Source: an uncultured Desulfobulbus sp. (lineage in GTDB: Bacteria; Desulfobacterota; Desulfobulbia; Desulfobulbales; Desulfobulbaceae). From it: a stretch of 64,000 bases of DNA. Shown one piece after another: positions 2,330-60,158 of the stretch (positions are counted from its first letter, which is position 1; each line of letters opens with the position of its first letter). Both the position numbers and the translations under genes were made by a program. Location: the NCBI RefSeq assembly GCF_963665445.1, contig NZ_OY762276.1:1210001-1274000 (forward strand). Direction: 5' to 3'. The notes beneath the pieces were generated by a model. That model saw only the letters and a list, made by a program, of their open reading frames with translations. It was not told the DNA's origin and did not search any database.

Positions 2330-4498
2330 ATGAAAAAAAATGATCAAGGACTCTCCATTGTCTTGCTCAGTATCCATGGACTGATTCGAGGAAACAACCT
2401 CGAGCTCGGCCGCGATGCCGATACCGGCGGCCAGACCCTCTACGTTGTCGAACTGGCCCAGGCCCTGGCCAAGCAAAGGGGCATTGCCCGGGTCGACCTG
2501 GTCACCCAACGGGTGGTTGACGACAGCGTTTCTCCCGATTATGCGCAGCATCTTGAAATTCTCGGGGAGAATCTCCGTATTGTTCGCATCGATGCCGGCC
2601 CCGAGCAGTATCTACCCAAGGAACAGTTGTGGGACCATCTCGACTTCTTTGCCGACAATCTGGTCAACTTTTTTCAGGAAGAGAATTCGTTTCCCCATAT
2701 CCTCCACAGCCACTACGCCGATGCCGGCTACGTTGGCTGCCGTCTGGCCAATCAACTCGGCATTCCCCTGATTCATACCGGCCATTCGCTTGGCCGGGTC
2801 AAACGAAGCCGACTGCTTGCCAGCGGACTCAATGCCGAGGAAATCGAAAGCCGGTTCAATATGAGCCGCCGCATCGAGGCGGAGGAGCAAACGCTTTCCA
2901 CCGCCGAGCGGGTGATTACCAGCACCCACCAGGAAATTGCCGAGCAGTACGAGCTCTACGATTACTACCAGCCCGAGCAGATGCGGGTCATTCCTCCGGG
3001 GACCAATCTCAACCAGTTCACGCCGCCAACCGGCGACGAACATAAAAGCGCGTTGTTCGCCACCCTGACCAGGCACCTCAAGGATCCGCACAAGCCCATT
3101 GTTCTCGCCCTGTCCCGGCCGGATCACCGTAAAAACATCGCTGCCCTGGTCGAGGCTTATGGCCAGAACGAACGGTTGCAGGAGTTGGCCAACCTGATCA
3201 TCATCGCCGGCAATCGCGACGACATCAACGAGCTCGACGAGGGGGCACAGGAGGTCTTCCGCGAGCTGCTCCTCGTCATTGACCGGTACGATCTGTACAG
3301 CAAGGTGACCATGCCCAAGCACCATCGACGCGATCAGGTGCCGATGATCTACCGGATTGCCGCGGCCAGCGGAGGCGTGTTCGTCAATCCCGGGCTGACC
3401 GAACCCTTCGGTCTGACCCTGATCGAGGCCGCAGCCAGCGGCATGCCGATCGTTGCCACCGAGGACGGGGGTCCCAAGGACATCATTCACAACTGTCAGA
3501 ACGGGTTTCTCATCAATCCGCTGGAGCCGATATCGATTGGCGATGCGATCGTCAAACTCCTGGTGGACCAGGACCTGTGGCGGCAGTGTGCGGCCAACGG
3601 CCTGCGAGGCGTGAGCGACCATTATTCCTGGGATGCGCATGCGTACCGCTACCTGGAGGTTATCAAGCCGATCGCCGAGAGTTCGGAACGACTTCAACGC
3701 AAGCCGGTCATTCGCCGTCAGCATCTCTACTGCGACCGGGCCATTGTCAGCGATCTCGATCTCAACCTGGTTGGCGATTCCGACGCCCTGGAACGGCTTC
3801 TTGAGCAGCTTCGCTGGCAGCGAACCCGCAGTTATTTCATCATTGCCACGGGACGTCGATTTGACGCCACCTTGAAATTGATGAAAAAACACAATATTCC
3901 CGAACCGGATGTACTCATTACCAGCAGCGGCACCGAGATCTATCATGCCCCCAAACTCACCGCAGACACTGCCTGGGCAAAGCATATCGATCACCAGTGG
4001 ACACCGCACATCGTCAAGGCACTCCTGACCGATTTACCCGGTCTGAAACTGCAGCCCGCAGCCGAACAGAGCCGCTATAAAATCAGTTATTATTTCGACC
4101 CGGAACTGGCCGATCTCGAGGAGATCAAACAGATCCTCTACCGCGATGAGCAGGCGGTGTTCATTCAGACCGCCTTTGGCCAGTTCCTCGATATCCTGCC
4201 CCTGCGTGCATCCAAGGGCATGGCCCTGCGTTATGTGGTGCAACAGTTGCGGCTTGAGTTGGAAAAGGTTTTCGTGGCCGGTGGTTCGGGCGCGGACGAG
4301 GACATGATGCGCGGCAACACCCTGGCTGCAGTGGTGGCCAACCGCCATAACGAAGAACTGTCCCAGCTGGTGGATGTGGAACGGATCTATTTTTCCGAAC
4401 AGTCCTATGCCGCAGGAATCCTCGAGGCCATCGAGTTTTACGATTTTTTCGGCGAGTGCCGCGATCCGCGGTCCTCCGGAGGCCATGACGATGCCTAG
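2330..4498 (+). CDS. sps: Sucrose-phosphate synthase with C-terminal HAD domain
   Basis: Catalyses UDP-glucose (or ADP-glucose) plus fructose-6-phosphate to sucrose-6-phosphate in the cytoplasm. The 722-aa protein starts with the family's N-terminal GT4 block (HGLIRGNNLELGRDADTGGQ), has the GT4 acid pair EPFGLTLIE near residue 358, and ends in a HAD-type sucrose-phosphatase-like domain from about residue 465. HAD motif I is present (SDLDLN), but motif IV reads GGSGADED where phosphatases have GDSGND, so this domain is probably weak or structural. A separate phosphatase gene follows with a 14-bp overlap. A GAGGAG ribosome site precedes the ATG. First gene of a four-gene sucrose operon. Confidence 0.93.
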   Translation: MKKNDQGLSIVLLSIHGLIRGNNLELGRDADTGGQTLYVVELAQALAKQRGIARVDLVTQRVVDDSVSPDYAQHLEILGENLRIVRIDAGPEQYLPKEQLWDHLDFFADNLVNFFQEENSFPHILHSHYADAGYVGCRLANQLGIPLIHTGHSLGRVKRSRLLASGLNAEEIESRFNMSRRIEAEEQTLSTAERVITSTHQEIAEQYELYDYYQPEQMRVIPPGTNLNQFTPPTGDEHKSALFATLTRHLKDPHKPIVLALSRPDHRKNIAALVEAYGQNERLQELANLIIIAGNRDDINELDEGAQEVFRELLLVIDRYDLYSKVTMPKHHRRDQVPMIYRIAAASGGVFVNPGLTEPFGLTLIEAAASGMPIVATEDGGPKDIIHNCQNGFLINPLEPISIGDAIVKLLVDQDLWRQCAANGLRGVSDHYSWDAHAYRYLEVIKPIAESSERLQRKPVIRRQHLYCDRAIVSDLDLNLVGDSDALERLLEQLRWQRTRSYFIIATGRRFDATLKLMKKHNIPEPDVLITSSGTEIYHAPKLTADTAWAKHIDHQWTPHIVKALLTDLPGLKLQPAAEQSRYKISYYFDPELADLEEIKQILYRDEQAVFIQTAFGQFLDILPLRASKGMALRYVVQQLRLELEKVFVAGGSGADEDMMRGNTLAAVVANRHNEELSQLVDVERIYFSEQSYAAGILEAIEFYDFFGECRDPRSSGGHDDA

Positions 4499-5330
4499 GC
4501 TGCTGCTCTGTACCGATATGGATCGGACCGTGATCCCCAATGGCCATCAAGTCGAGCATCCGCATGCCCGGGAAACATTCTCCCGGCTGTGCAGTCTGCC
4601 GCAGGTCTGCCTGGTCTATGTGACCGGTCGCGACCTCATGTTGACGAAGCAGGCCATTGATCACTACCGGCTGCCCATGCCGGCCTATGCGATTACCGAC
4701 GTGGGCACAAAAATTTACGAGCAAACAGAGGGGAGCTGGCTGGAGCTCTCCTCCTGGCGCGAGGAGATCGCCGTGGACTGGGCGGGCAAGGAGCACGGTC
4801 AACTGGAGGCGGTGCTTGCCGATCTTGATGATTTGACGTTGCAGGAAGTCGACAAGCAGCAGGAGTTCAAGCTCAGCTACTACGTAGCCTTGGAGGTGGA
4901 CCATCAACCGCTCTTGGCCCGTATCGACAACCGTCTGCAGGGCATGGGCGTCAACGCCAGCCTCATCTGGAGTATCGATGAACCCAACGAAATCGGTCTG
5001 CTTGATATTCTGCCTCGTCATGCCACCAAGATGCACGGCATTGAATTTCTCGCCGACCATCTGGGCTACCGGCGTGAAGAGATCCTCTTTGCCGGTGACA
5101 GCGGCAACGATCTGCCGGTGATGGGCAGTGCGATCCGTTCCATTTTGGTGGCCAATGCCGATTGTGCAACCAAGACGGCGGCAGAGCAACTGGCCAGGGA
5201 CAACAATGTCGCTGATACCCTGTATCTGGCCGAATCCGACTCCTTTGCCCTTGGCGGCAACTACGCCGCCGGTGTTTTGCAGGGCGTGGTTCATTTTGCC
5301 CCTGCCATTGCCCAGGCCCTCAACCTTTGA
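4485..5330 (+). CDS. spp: Sucrose-6-phosphate phosphatase (HAD superfamily)
   Basis: Hydrolyses sucrose-6-phosphate to sucrose. The protein (281 aa) opens with the HAD nucleophile motif LLLCTDMDRT and has the late Mg-binding motif FAGDSGNDLPVM near residue 205, both intact, unlike the HAD tail of the upstream synthase. The frame stays open upstream inside sps. The ATG at 4485 (or the in-frame ATG at 4491) puts the DxD motif at the expected distance from the N-terminus and gives a 14-bp overlap with sps, suggesting translational coupling. The coupled order synthase-phosphatase-fructokinase-amylosucrase matches sucrose clusters known from halotolerant methylotrophs. Confidence 0.92.
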   Translation: MTMPRLLLCTDMDRTVIPNGHQVEHPHARETFSRLCSLPQVCLVYVTGRDLMLTKQAIDHYRLPMPAYAITDVGTKIYEQTEGSWLELSSWREEIAVDWAGKEHGQLEAVLADLDDLTLQEVDKQQEFKLSYYVALEVDHQPLLARIDNRLQGMGVNASLIWSIDEPNEIGLLDILPRHATKMHGIEFLADHLGYRREEILFAGDSGNDLPVMGSAIRSILVANADCATKTAAEQLARDNNVADTLYLAESDSFALGGNYAAGVLQGVVHFAPAIAQALNL

Positions 5331-5354
5331 TCGATGAATATCCAGAGGACAGCT

Positions 5355-6233
5355 ATGCAGAAACAGGCAGGACTCTTTATTTTTGGTGAGGTGTTGTTCG
5401 ATTGCTTTCCCGGCGGGGAGCAGATTCTCGGCGGTGCGCCCTTTAACGTGGCCTGGCATCTGCAGGCCCTGGGAGATCGCCCCCTGTTCATCTCCCGCAT
5501 CGGCGAAGATGCACAAGGCGGACAGATTCTTCAAGCCATGCGCCAGTGGGGGATGGAGACCGGGGCAATGCAGATCGATACCACCCGGCCGACCGGTCGG
5601 GTCGAGGTGCGCATCACCAACAACGAGCCCAGTTACGACATCGTTGCCGACAGCGCCTATGATCGTATTTCGGCCGCCGACCTTCCGGATTGCTCCGGCG
5701 GGGGTGTGCTCTATCACGGCACGCTTGCCCTGCGGCAGGAGGAGTCGCGGGAGGCCCTGCGGCGGCTCTCGGAAAAGCCAGCACTGAAAGTTTTTCTCGA
5801 TGTCAATCTGCGGGCACCCTGGTGGAAGCGGGAGAGCGTCGTGGACCTGCTGCACAGGGCCTATTGGGCCAAGATGAACGAGCTCGAGTTACAGCTGCTG
5901 ACGCAGACAGAGGACGATATCGCCCAACAGATGGAAGCCCTGCAGAATCAATGCGGGCTTGAGCAGTTGATCGTCACCCGCGGAGAGCGTGGTGCACTGG
6001 TCAGGACAGCGGGTGGTGCGATGCAGAGTTTCAGCCCGGAAAAGGTCGATGCTGTGGTCGATACCGTGGGTGCCGGCGACGCCTTCAGTGCCGTATATCT
6101 CCATGGTCTGCTGGCGGGCTGGCCCATCGAAACAATTGGCAGGAGAGCCCAGCGTTTTGCTGGCAAGGTGATCGGGCTTAGAGGGGCGACAACCAGCGAT
6201 TCCCATTTTTACCAAGACGTACAGGATTTTTGA
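5355..6233 (+). CDS. Fructokinase, PfkB/ribokinase family
   Basis: Phosphorylates fructose to fructose-6-phosphate, recycling the fructose released from sucrose by the amylosucrase encoded next. The PfkB fold is clear: an N-terminal GEVLFDCFPGG motif, GGAPFNVAWHLQALG, and the C-terminal PfkB signature DTVGAGDAFSA with its catalytic Asp near residue 242. The start at 5355 is preferred because AGAGG at 5344-5348 sits 6 bases upstream; an in-frame ATG at 5334 would add seven residues. Length 292 aa is usual for the family. It lies 24 bp after spp and 52 bp before the amylosucrase gene. Confidence 0.9.
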   Translation: MQKQAGLFIFGEVLFDCFPGGEQILGGAPFNVAWHLQALGDRPLFISRIGEDAQGGQILQAMRQWGMETGAMQIDTTRPTGRVEVRITNNEPSYDIVADSAYDRISAADLPDCSGGGVLYHGTLALRQEESREALRRLSEKPALKVFLDVNLRAPWWKRESVVDLLHRAYWAKMNELELQLLTQTEDDIAQQMEALQNQCGLEQLIVTRGERGALVRTAGGAMQSFSPEKVDAVVDTVGAGDAFSAVYLHGLLAGWPIETIGRRAQRFAGKVIGLRGATTSDSHFYQDVQDF

Positions 6234-6285
6234 TCTGCCGGAGCAGGATCACCTCATTTTCCTCGAATACAGAAGGTTTTTTCAT

Positions 6286-8235
<1,950 letters not shown>

Positions 8236-8297
8236 GCCCTGAACCGGCTTGGGATGAGGGCCTATTGCGGTCCCCATCCCATTTGTCAATTGTTTTC

Positions 8298-8313
8298 TTC
8301 GGCGACCGCCGAA
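8298..8313 (-). promoter_or_regulatory. Candidate bacterial SECIS hairpin for the second TGA
   Basis: On the minus strand a perfect hairpin, UUCGGC-GGUC-GCCGAA, begins 12 nt after the second in-frame TGA (8326-8328) of the small gene at 8317-8526. The GGUC apical loop and the 12-nt spacing resemble the minimal E. coli fdhF SECIS hairpin, whose loop presents GGU to SelB about 17-20 nt after UGA. It lies past the TAG stop, so it is free of coding constraint. The hairpin is seen; its role is inferred. Confidence 0.6.
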
Positions 8314-8316
8314 ATC

Positions 8317-8526
8317 CTAGACTCCTCAGGTACCACCAAAACCAATGGTCACCCGGCCATCAATCACAATGACCGGGACCTTGCGTTGGCCCTGGCTGTG
8401 CTTGAGCATCTCCTCCATCCGCGTACTGTCAAGCTTCACATCGTAAAAGGTATGACCTGGATTCGCCGCACGGGCGCGATCCGTATGGGGTCAGCCTTTC
8501 TTCCCGAAAATGATCGTGGTGTTCAT
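8317..8526 (-). CDS. Putative small selenoprotein with two Sec codons (UXX-stop, glutaredoxin-like)
   Basis: This gene is hidden from ordinary ORF calling. Read from the ATG at 8526 with TGA as selenocysteine (U) it gives 69 residues. An N-terminal beta strand (MNTTIIF) leads into GKKG-U-PHT, placing U where glutaredoxins have their active-site Cys. A thioredoxin-fold-like body (TFYDVKLD, then VPVIVIDG with the cis-Pro before a strand) follows, and the end is GGT-U-GV-stop. The TGA codons are 8491-8493 and 8326-8328; TAG is 8317-8319. GAGGAG sits 7 bases before the ATG. Both TGAs have a hairpin at SECIS distance. The C-terminal U-x-x-stop matches, from memory, a family NCBI calls UXX-star (seleno)protein. 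Partner enzyme and function are unknown; a redox role is inferred. Confidence 0.72.
8459..8482 (-). promoter_or_regulatory. Candidate bacterial SECIS hairpin for the first TGA
   Basis: Eight nt after the first in-frame TGA (8491-8493, minus strand) lies an imperfect stem: GGAU, CG and CGC pair with GCG, CG and AUCC across two single-base bulges, leaving apical loop CCGU. The loop lies about 17-20 nt after the TGA, where bacterial SECIS loops normally sit, and carries GU. The stem must also encode protein, which explains the bulges. Folding software was not available, so stability is unmeasured. Confidence 0.45.
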
Positions 8527-8660
8527 AGTTCAACTCCTCAAATACATCGTTTTCTGTCACCGCCGTGCTATTGATCCCGGCGGTACCTCATGGGATAAGA
8601 GTATCCCATGGAGATAAAAATGGAATGATGGCCTGGCGAAAATCAGGGCAAGGTATGGGC

Positions 8661-28152: not shown

Positions 28153-28181
28153 TTGACTTTACCGCGGAACTCCAGTTTATC
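28153..28181 (+). promoter_or_regulatory. Promoter upstream of cobalamin riboswitch 1
   Basis: TTGACT (28153-28158) and TTTATC (28176-28181) are separated by 17 bp. The predicted start point lies just before the riboswitch aptamer. The -10 match is poor, so this is a positional call. Confidence 0.4.
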
Positions 28182-28184
28182 TGC

Positions 28185-28350
28185 CGCAATTCAGGTGTTC
28201 TAAGGAACCAAAGAGGGAACCCCGTGCAAATCGGGGACGGGCCCGCCGCTGTGACCGGGGACGAACGCTGCATCGAAGTCACTGACCGATTTGGGTTGGG
28301 AAGACGCAGTCTGTAGGGTGATCCGGAAGTCAGAAGACCTGCCTGAATGG
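28185..28350 (+). ncRNA. Cobalamin riboswitch 1 (AdoCbl class aptamer)
   Basis: The B12-box features are present in order: AGAGGGAACCCCGTGCAA, the GGGACGGGCCCGCCGCTGTGA core (GCCGCUG box) and the closing GGAAGTCAGAAGACCTGCC. It binds adenosylcobalamin and controls the TonB receptor gene downstream. The hairpin at 28423-28460 is the likely expression platform. The aptamer is nearly identical to that at 42222, suggesting recent duplication. Confidence 0.95.
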
Positions 28351-28422
28351 TCAGTGGAGACGACTGCGTGGACGGCGGCGGACCCCGATATTGTTGAGAT
28401 ATCACTGTGGATAAAGAGGGCT

Positions 28423-42188: not shown

Positions 42189-42217
42189 TTGACATCGCTT
42201 TGAGCATCTGTTCTATG
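42189..42217 (+). promoter_or_regulatory. Promoter upstream of cobalamin riboswitch 2
   Basis: TTGACA (42189-42194), 17 bp spacer, TCTATG (42212-42217). The perfect -35 and position just before the aptamer support a promoter for the corrinoid operon. Confidence 0.5.
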
Positions 42218-42221
42218 CATG

Positions 42222-42384
42222 GCTAGTTCAGGTGTTCGCAAGAACACAAGAGGGAACCCCGTGCAACTCGGGGACGGGCCCGCCGCTGTGACCGAGGACG
42301 AACGCTGCAGTATGTCACTGACCGCAAGGTTGGGAAGACGCAGCAAGTAGGGTGATCCGGAAGTCAGAAGACCTGCCTGGACGG
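42222..42384 (+). ncRNA. Cobalamin riboswitch 2
   Basis: AAGAGGGAACCCCGTGCAA, GGGACGGGCCCGCCGCTGTGA and GGAAGTCAGAAGACCTGCC occur in the order and spacing of the AdoCbl riboswitch. It precedes the CcsA/ResB-like, BtuFCD-like and cobN operon. Nearly identical to riboswitch 1 through the core and the closing stem. Confidence 0.95.
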
Positions 42385-42449
42385 GAAAGGAGACGACTGC
42401 GTGGACGGCGGCGTACCCGGTAGATATATTTCTGCGGATAAATAGGGCT

Positions 42450-59823: not shown

Positions 59824-59835
59824 AACCAAAAGTCG

Positions 59836-60018
59836 CATGTCGGTCGCCCGGTTGAACCGGGCGTGAAAAGGGAATCCCGTGCAAACCGGGAACGGTCCCG
59901 CCGCTGTAATCCTCGCCCCGAAACAGGAGATCGGGAACCCTGCCGAGACAGGGCCACTGTGCAACTGCATGGGAAGGCCTCGGCAAGGGAGGGAGAGTCA
60001 GAAGACCTGCCGGACATG
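59836..60018 (+). ncRNA. Cobalamin riboswitch 3
   Basis: GCATGTCGG at the start pairs with CCGGACATG (60010-60018) as P1. AAAGGGAATCCCGTGCAAACCGGGAACGG, CCCGCCGCTGTAA and GAGTCAGAAGACCTGCC are the expected elements. It differs in sequence from riboswitches 1 and 2, and no terminator hairpin with a T run was seen before the receptor start, so it may act on translation. It lies 16 bp after cbiZ. Confidence 0.95.
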
Positions 60019-60158
60019 CCAATATTTACCACGACTGTCGAGGATGCAGTGCTGTGCATTGCAGAAAACGGGCCTTCCGCTTTCTGTTGAGGGTGAATGC
60101 TGCGTTTTGTCGCTTCTGTTCCTCGCAGTCAATGATCAACCCTTTCAGGAGAAAAAGG

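Follow-up and report, generated by a model that had tools for sequence, protein, structure and literature searches.

The locus and its reading frame

Within the window, the 64-kb stretch of DNA that was analysed as a whole, the minus strand carries a small gene whose frame is interrupted twice by TGA (Table 1). It opens with an ATG at 8526-8524 and closes with a TAG at 8319-8317; the two TGAs are codons 12 and 67, and the TAG is codon 70. The gene end reads TGA GGA GTC TAG, which places the second selenocysteine (Sec) codon two codons ahead of the stop. The translation contains the motifs UPHT (UxxT) at Sec12 and GGTU at Sec67, and ends with the tail GGTUGV. The frame, its ATG, both UGAs, the stop and the length of 69 residues had been given in a preliminary description of this DNA and all match the sequence, as does the ribosome binding site which it had called good. 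On the plus strand, an open reading frame of 106 residues (8254-8574) overlaps the gene and is taken for its putative shadow.

Table 1. Features of the selenoprotein locus (positions in the window)
Feature	Position	Strand	Basis
UXX-star selenoprotein family 1 gene, 69 aa with 2 Sec, TAG stop	8317..8526	-	NF041114, PF00462, dN<<dS
UGA for Sec12, glutaredoxin-type active-site position, UPHT	8491..8493	-	sequence; Cys/Sec column in 78/78 aligned members
UGA for Sec67, two codons 5' of stop	8326..8328	-	sequence
GAGGAG ribosome binding site, 7 nt 5' of ATG	8534..8539	-	sequence
Candidate SECIS 1, within coding sequence: GGAU / CGCC-CGUGC-GGCG / AUCC	8459..8482	-	similar fold and comparative
Candidate SECIS 2, 3' of stop codon: UUUCGGC-GGUC-GCCGAAG	8297..8314	-	fold and comparative

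In six of six congeneric comparisons the frame, followed across both UGAs, has a dN of 0.15-0.22 against a dS of 1.5-2.2; it is under purifying selection across both of them. The observation that this is a real gene, and more than a chance frame, is confirmed. Nearby are a convergent alpha-amylase-family gene and, at a greater distance, a plus-strand MarR-type regulator, neither of them obviously linked to it. The plus strand also encodes a sucrose-phosphate synthase/phosphatase-like protein (2330-4498) and the alpha-amylase-family enzyme (6286-8235), with open reading frames between the two, and the region 2330-8235 is perhaps a sucrose metabolism cluster. The 64-kb window further holds three cobalamin riboswitches at 28176-28360, 42213-42394 and 59824-60029 (Rfam RF00174, 102-119 bits).

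A known family with two selenocysteines

The protein reaches 104.3 bits (cut-off 72, E 2.8e-30, profile positions 2-70 of 70) with NF041114, the curated NCBI model for “UXX-star selenoprotein family 1”, and this is the only place over the cut-off in the complete, single-contig genome of 5.08 Mb. The Pfam glutaredoxin profile PF00462 is matched as well (34.5 bits, cut-off 22.9); profile and fold both fit a glutaredoxin. We are very probably looking at a genuine gene, encoding a very small glutaredoxin-like protein that contains two selenocysteines. The score bears out the tentative class name “UXX-star (seleno)protein” of the preliminary description. Its hint of a new two-Sec architecture does not stand, since “Distant Grx-like protein 1 (UXX-star selenoprotein family 1), NF041114, UxxT, 2 Sec” is already an entry in the table of a 2026 review (PMC13188914). 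“Distant Grx-like protein 1” with UxxT is also listed in PMC9312934; the available passages of PMC2398784, the apparent target of the review's citation, do not name UXX-star family 1. The family and its reported architecture are therefore already known, and what is added here is a sharper functional hypothesis.

The window protein is like the members of family 1 in score, UxxT motif, two Sec residues and C-terminal U-x-x-stop, and we found no difference between them. It barely passes the Uxx-star subfamily model NF041212 (67.3 bits, cut-off 66), a broader model that also covers relatives with ordinary ends. The related profiles for UXX-star families 2 and 3 and the HUGP/GUXX-star fusion (NF041211, NF047338, NF045501) give 29-38 bits, far below their cut-offs of 97-325 bits.

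The two selenocysteine positions among relatives

Among the 73 genomes of the taxonomic family, the own genome included, 14 have a match at E<=1e-5 and seven exceed the NF041114 cut-off, all seven of them with two in-frame TGAs. A sample of 395 genomes from the phylum gave 116 genomes with a match at E<=1e-12 and 100 over the cut-off. A Desulfobulbus MAG with 74% identity is among the nearest named relatives in the protein scan, and both UGAs are also present in four relatives from Acidobacteria and Methylomirabilis MAGs (L040-L043).

We read 122 related places drawn from the profile matches in the taxonomic family and the phylum sample. As many as 107 end in UGA-x(2-4)-stop, 99 of these with exactly two codons between; the rest consist of five whose tail motif likewise closes with a UGA but is followed by a longer or unbounded frame, eight without the motif, and two that are truncated. 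Another 14 matches below the cut-off lay outside the 122, and 13 of them were read (G320 was left out): 11 have ordinary glutaredoxin-like ends, and two (G389, G310) end in GGUGF-stop with a UGA. In the latter two (L200, L201) position 1 is Cys and the tail UGA is displaced; they perhaps represent another UXX-star family. Cys was found in the GG(S/T)-x-x-stop place in none of the 135 places read (122 and the 13 below the cut-off). One more distant relative, reached through the broader model (L210), has Glu near the place of the tail Sec. The count of UGAs at position 2 is circular on its own because the 107 were picked by that UGA, and it is the absence of Cys versions that is informative; “position 2 UGA in 110/110” was likewise dropped as evidence, its rows having been chosen by the same UGA.

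The first position behaves differently. Of the 107, 90 have UGA there, 15 have Cys and one has Gly; in one it is not reached. The alignment column of Sec12 is Cys or Sec in all 78 members, and that of Sec67 is UGA in all 78, these rows having been selected for that UGA; Gly follows Sec67 directly in 71 of the 107. The homologs read thus carry Sec or Cys at position 1, one Gly apart, and UGA at position 2, the pattern that the preliminary description had looked for; they run past the first UGA, where it would have counted an end as evidence against the gene. On a quick tree (105 rows, 68 columns), the Sec/Cys label at position 1 requires at least 11 changes, five of them forced by starred branches, on a topology of low resolution that leaves 48 of 100 inner branches open and gives no direction of change; only one in 500 label shuffles was as low as the observed value. 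The active-site position switches repeatedly between Sec and Cys among members, and the tail Sec is never Cys in this sample.

Two variants are worth recording. One subgroup (L164, L166, L173-L178, L185) carries roughly a dozen extra residues that separate the last strand from the GGTU-like tail, and a member of the ACR3 cluster lies nearby in six of its nine genomes. In the congener G035, a member at L197:1462-1578 is without the first-UGA region and has a stop ahead of the tail, with the SECIS 2 hairpin sequence still downstream; this copy is decaying or misassembled.

A tail proposed to take the place of glutathione

A single-sequence fold was poor (pLDDT 48) and was replaced by an alignment-based AlphaFold2 model, built from 78 sequences with Cys in place of Sec (pLDDT 95.3). 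The model has only two helices, at 13-21 and 34-43, with strand codes at 49-50 and 67-68. For each of the 50 PDB chains among the matches listed, the alignment stops at model residue 65, and by this model the glutaredoxin core would comprise residues 1-65, with the last four residues outside the matched fold. The active-site motif of glutaredoxins is CPYC, and in ordinary members an additional helix at the C-terminus contributes to glutathione binding. This additional helix, the mark of the classical glutathione-dependent proteins, is missing from the window protein, which ends at residue 69. It shares with monothiol and dithiol glutaredoxins (Grx3; PDB 7c10, 4tr0, 4tr1) the core fold of 1-65, over which the sequences also match, but it has UPHT rather than CPYC, no third helix in the model, and the GGTUGV end.

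We propose that the protein would be a glutaredoxin core shortened after the last strand, with the GGTUGV tail replacing the usual further helix. The tail would fold back so that Sec67-Gly68 runs antiparallel to Lys49-Val50 beside cis-Pro51, which we take to be the site at which glutaredoxins hold the Cys-Gly part of glutathione; Sec67 would then bond reversibly to residue 12, as a diselenide or selenenylsulfide. The pairing of 49-50 with 67-68 and the distance between Sec12 and Sec67 are deduced from secondary-structure codes of the model, and we regard this placement of the tail, and the pairing of Sec67 with residue 12, as plausible, if somewhat short of probable. A little more tentative is the wider reading of family 1 as a glutaredoxin with built-in glutathione, in which the Sec-Gly tail would occupy the groove and cycle with residue 12. 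Such a protein would bring its own substitute for glutathione and be re-reduced by a thioredoxin-type system; with the tail filling the groove, glutaredoxin chemistry could run in glutathione-free anaerobes. A limited literature search found no report of a glutathione-mimicking Sec tail, which is no proof of absence.

The glutathione genes are relevant here. The own genome, complete in a single contig, has no match to gshB at E<=1e-20 and none to gshA of the PF04262 type, the one gshA type that the search covered. Among the 100 genomes over the family-1 cut-off, gshB over its own cut-off is missing in 98. However, gshB is present in only 20 of the 395 genomes of the phylum sample, and its absence alongside family 1 gives a Fisher p of 0.12 for matches over the cut-off and 0.02 for the loose set at E<=1e-20; because the gene is this rare across the sample, its absence is weak support for the tail model. 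Together, the missing glutathione genes and the asymmetry between a tail codon that is UGA in every tail motif of this sample and an active-site codon that is at times Cys suggest a mechanism that can be tested.

The two Sec residues might, instead of a redox pair, form a site for a metal or metalloid such as arsenic or mercury, which would make the protein a metallochaperone or detoxification factor. PMC13188914 raises the possibility that the Sec residues of UXX-star proteins act as metal ligands. In 10 of 105 genomes the copies have, no more than four genes away, a member of a cluster to which ACR3 arsenite exporters belong (a raw count with no background rate), and all four cluster members tested exceeded the acr3 cut-off, which is a hint of metal chemistry among these copies. 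Among the Foldseek matches listed, the arsenic chaperone ArsD is a weak entry (rank 38, E 0.025). However, no ACR3-type gene is among the nearest genes in the window, whose own neighbours recur in one congener only, G037. We consider the metal reading rather unlikely and prefer the glutathione-like tail.

A conserved operon was rejected on the same neighbourhood data. When the 773 open reading frames around 110 places in 105 genomes were clustered, no cluster spanned more than 17 genomes, and this largest one lumps cyclic-nucleotide/rhodanese, MauE/DoxX and cation-efflux proteins; with no conserved neighbour cluster, no functional partner follows. A mobile origin was also set aside: the protein has no match in plasmids or phages, and none was confirmed in viral contigs.

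Probable decoding of the two UGAs

The preliminary description had called for a check on selA, selB, selC and selD, and all four are in the own genome: selA at 613 bits, selB at 369, selD at 359, and selC as a canonical tRNA-Sec (70.6 bits) with a UCA anticodon and G73. The selD gene (G000:C1:5040875-5041816, L074) has one in-frame TGA itself, so the selenophosphate synthetase is probably a selenoprotein too. SelB and tRNA-Sec would decode both UGAs of the small gene, each aided by its own SECIS hairpin. Judged from sequence, it is highly likely that the gene is a functional two-Sec member of UXX-star family 1 in a Desulfobulbus-like anaerobe, with SelB and tRNA-Sec decoding both UGAs.

The genus also has a second, diverged UCA tRNA with U73, found in the own genome (L257:5278-5375) and in ten congeners (L247-L256) among the 23 genus genomes searched. 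It resembles the selC*-tRNA-Cys with UCA described in PMC7609411, and it may insert Cys at some UGAs. A 775-residue protein in which cysteine synthase is fused to cysteinyl-tRNA synthetase (L260:583-2910), encoded in the own genome beside a separate ordinary CysRS (L259), is a possible partner of this tRNA. That the UGAs of the present gene are read as Cys by it, fully or partly, is nevertheless very unlikely. The genome has the canonical tRNA-Sec with selA, selB and selD; only one SelB passes the cut-off, and the surroundings of the second tRNA hold no SelB-family match. Eight genus genomes have the gene (own included, one copy truncated), five of them with the second tRNA, which occurs without the gene in six others.

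Candidate SECIS hairpins

A hairpin at SECIS distance had been claimed after each TGA, and comparison lends strong support to the second and moderate support to the first. In the window, both loops begin 18 nt past their UGA. The GGUC loop reported for the second hairpin is present, but not “12 nt in”: that figure refers to the stem, which starts 11-12 nt after the UGA. The SECIS of E. coli fdhF is alike in its GGUC loop and in the 11-12 nt that separate its stem from the UGA; SECIS 2 of the window differs from it in lying 3' of the stop codon, and is hence free of coding constraint. Folded singly, the two hairpins show no significant advantage over shuffles (z -0.50 and -0.61), and an Rfam scan over 8200-8600 gave no SECIS family; its two matches were below threshold and belonged to unrelated families.

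For the first hairpin, a strict rule was satisfied after 37 of 98 first UGAs (shuffles 8.5, highest 15), and after five of 22 Cys codons at the same place (shuffles 2.7, highest 6). A looser rule requiring the upper stem and a G(G/U) loop, defined after inspecting the sequences, is satisfied by 72 of 93 Sec members against five of 16 non-Sec members (15 Cys, one Gly), with a Fisher p of 5e-4 that ignores relatedness.

The second hairpin is far more regular. With a best-hairpin search that allowed a wide range of distances and set no rule for the loop letters, the loop was found 16-22 nt past the UGA in 93 of the 107 relatives (shuffles mean 20.3, sd 4.5, highest 29 in 20 sets), and 94 had a G at loop position 1 or 2 (shuffles 52.2, highest 67). 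By a fixed rule the hairpin is present in 87 of the 107 (shuffles 13.9, highest 22 in 50 sets) and missing in 20; the congener G037 has no second hairpin at the usual place. The inner five pairs of 90 second hairpins come in 47 different forms; that they pair follows from how the hairpins were picked, but their great variety does not. Both candidate SECIS elements are therefore comparatively supported, the second much more strongly.

Being GC-rich and directly past a stop codon, the second hairpin could also be taken for an intrinsic terminator and no SECIS, which is highly improbable given that TTTT follows the stem in only five of the 107, that the loop is enriched in G and held at a narrow distance from the UGA, and that a terminator scan listed none at this place. 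That the frame arose by chance or is a pseudogene in decay, as its shortness, its interruption by UGA and its presence over the cut-off in only seven of 73 taxonomic-family genomes might suggest, can be dismissed in view of the NF041114 score, a dN/dS of about 0.1 and the presence of both UGAs in seven of seven genomes.

In 53 relatives, the UGA taken as Sec sits 9 nt ahead of a UGA taken as stop, and the hairpin is in register with the first; when the fixed rule is counted from the stop UGA instead, it is satisfied in 11 of them (shuffles 7.2, highest 11). These relatives are a natural test of SECIS spacing, and a SECIS that varies 3' of the stop without coding constraint makes the rules of the RNA easy to read.
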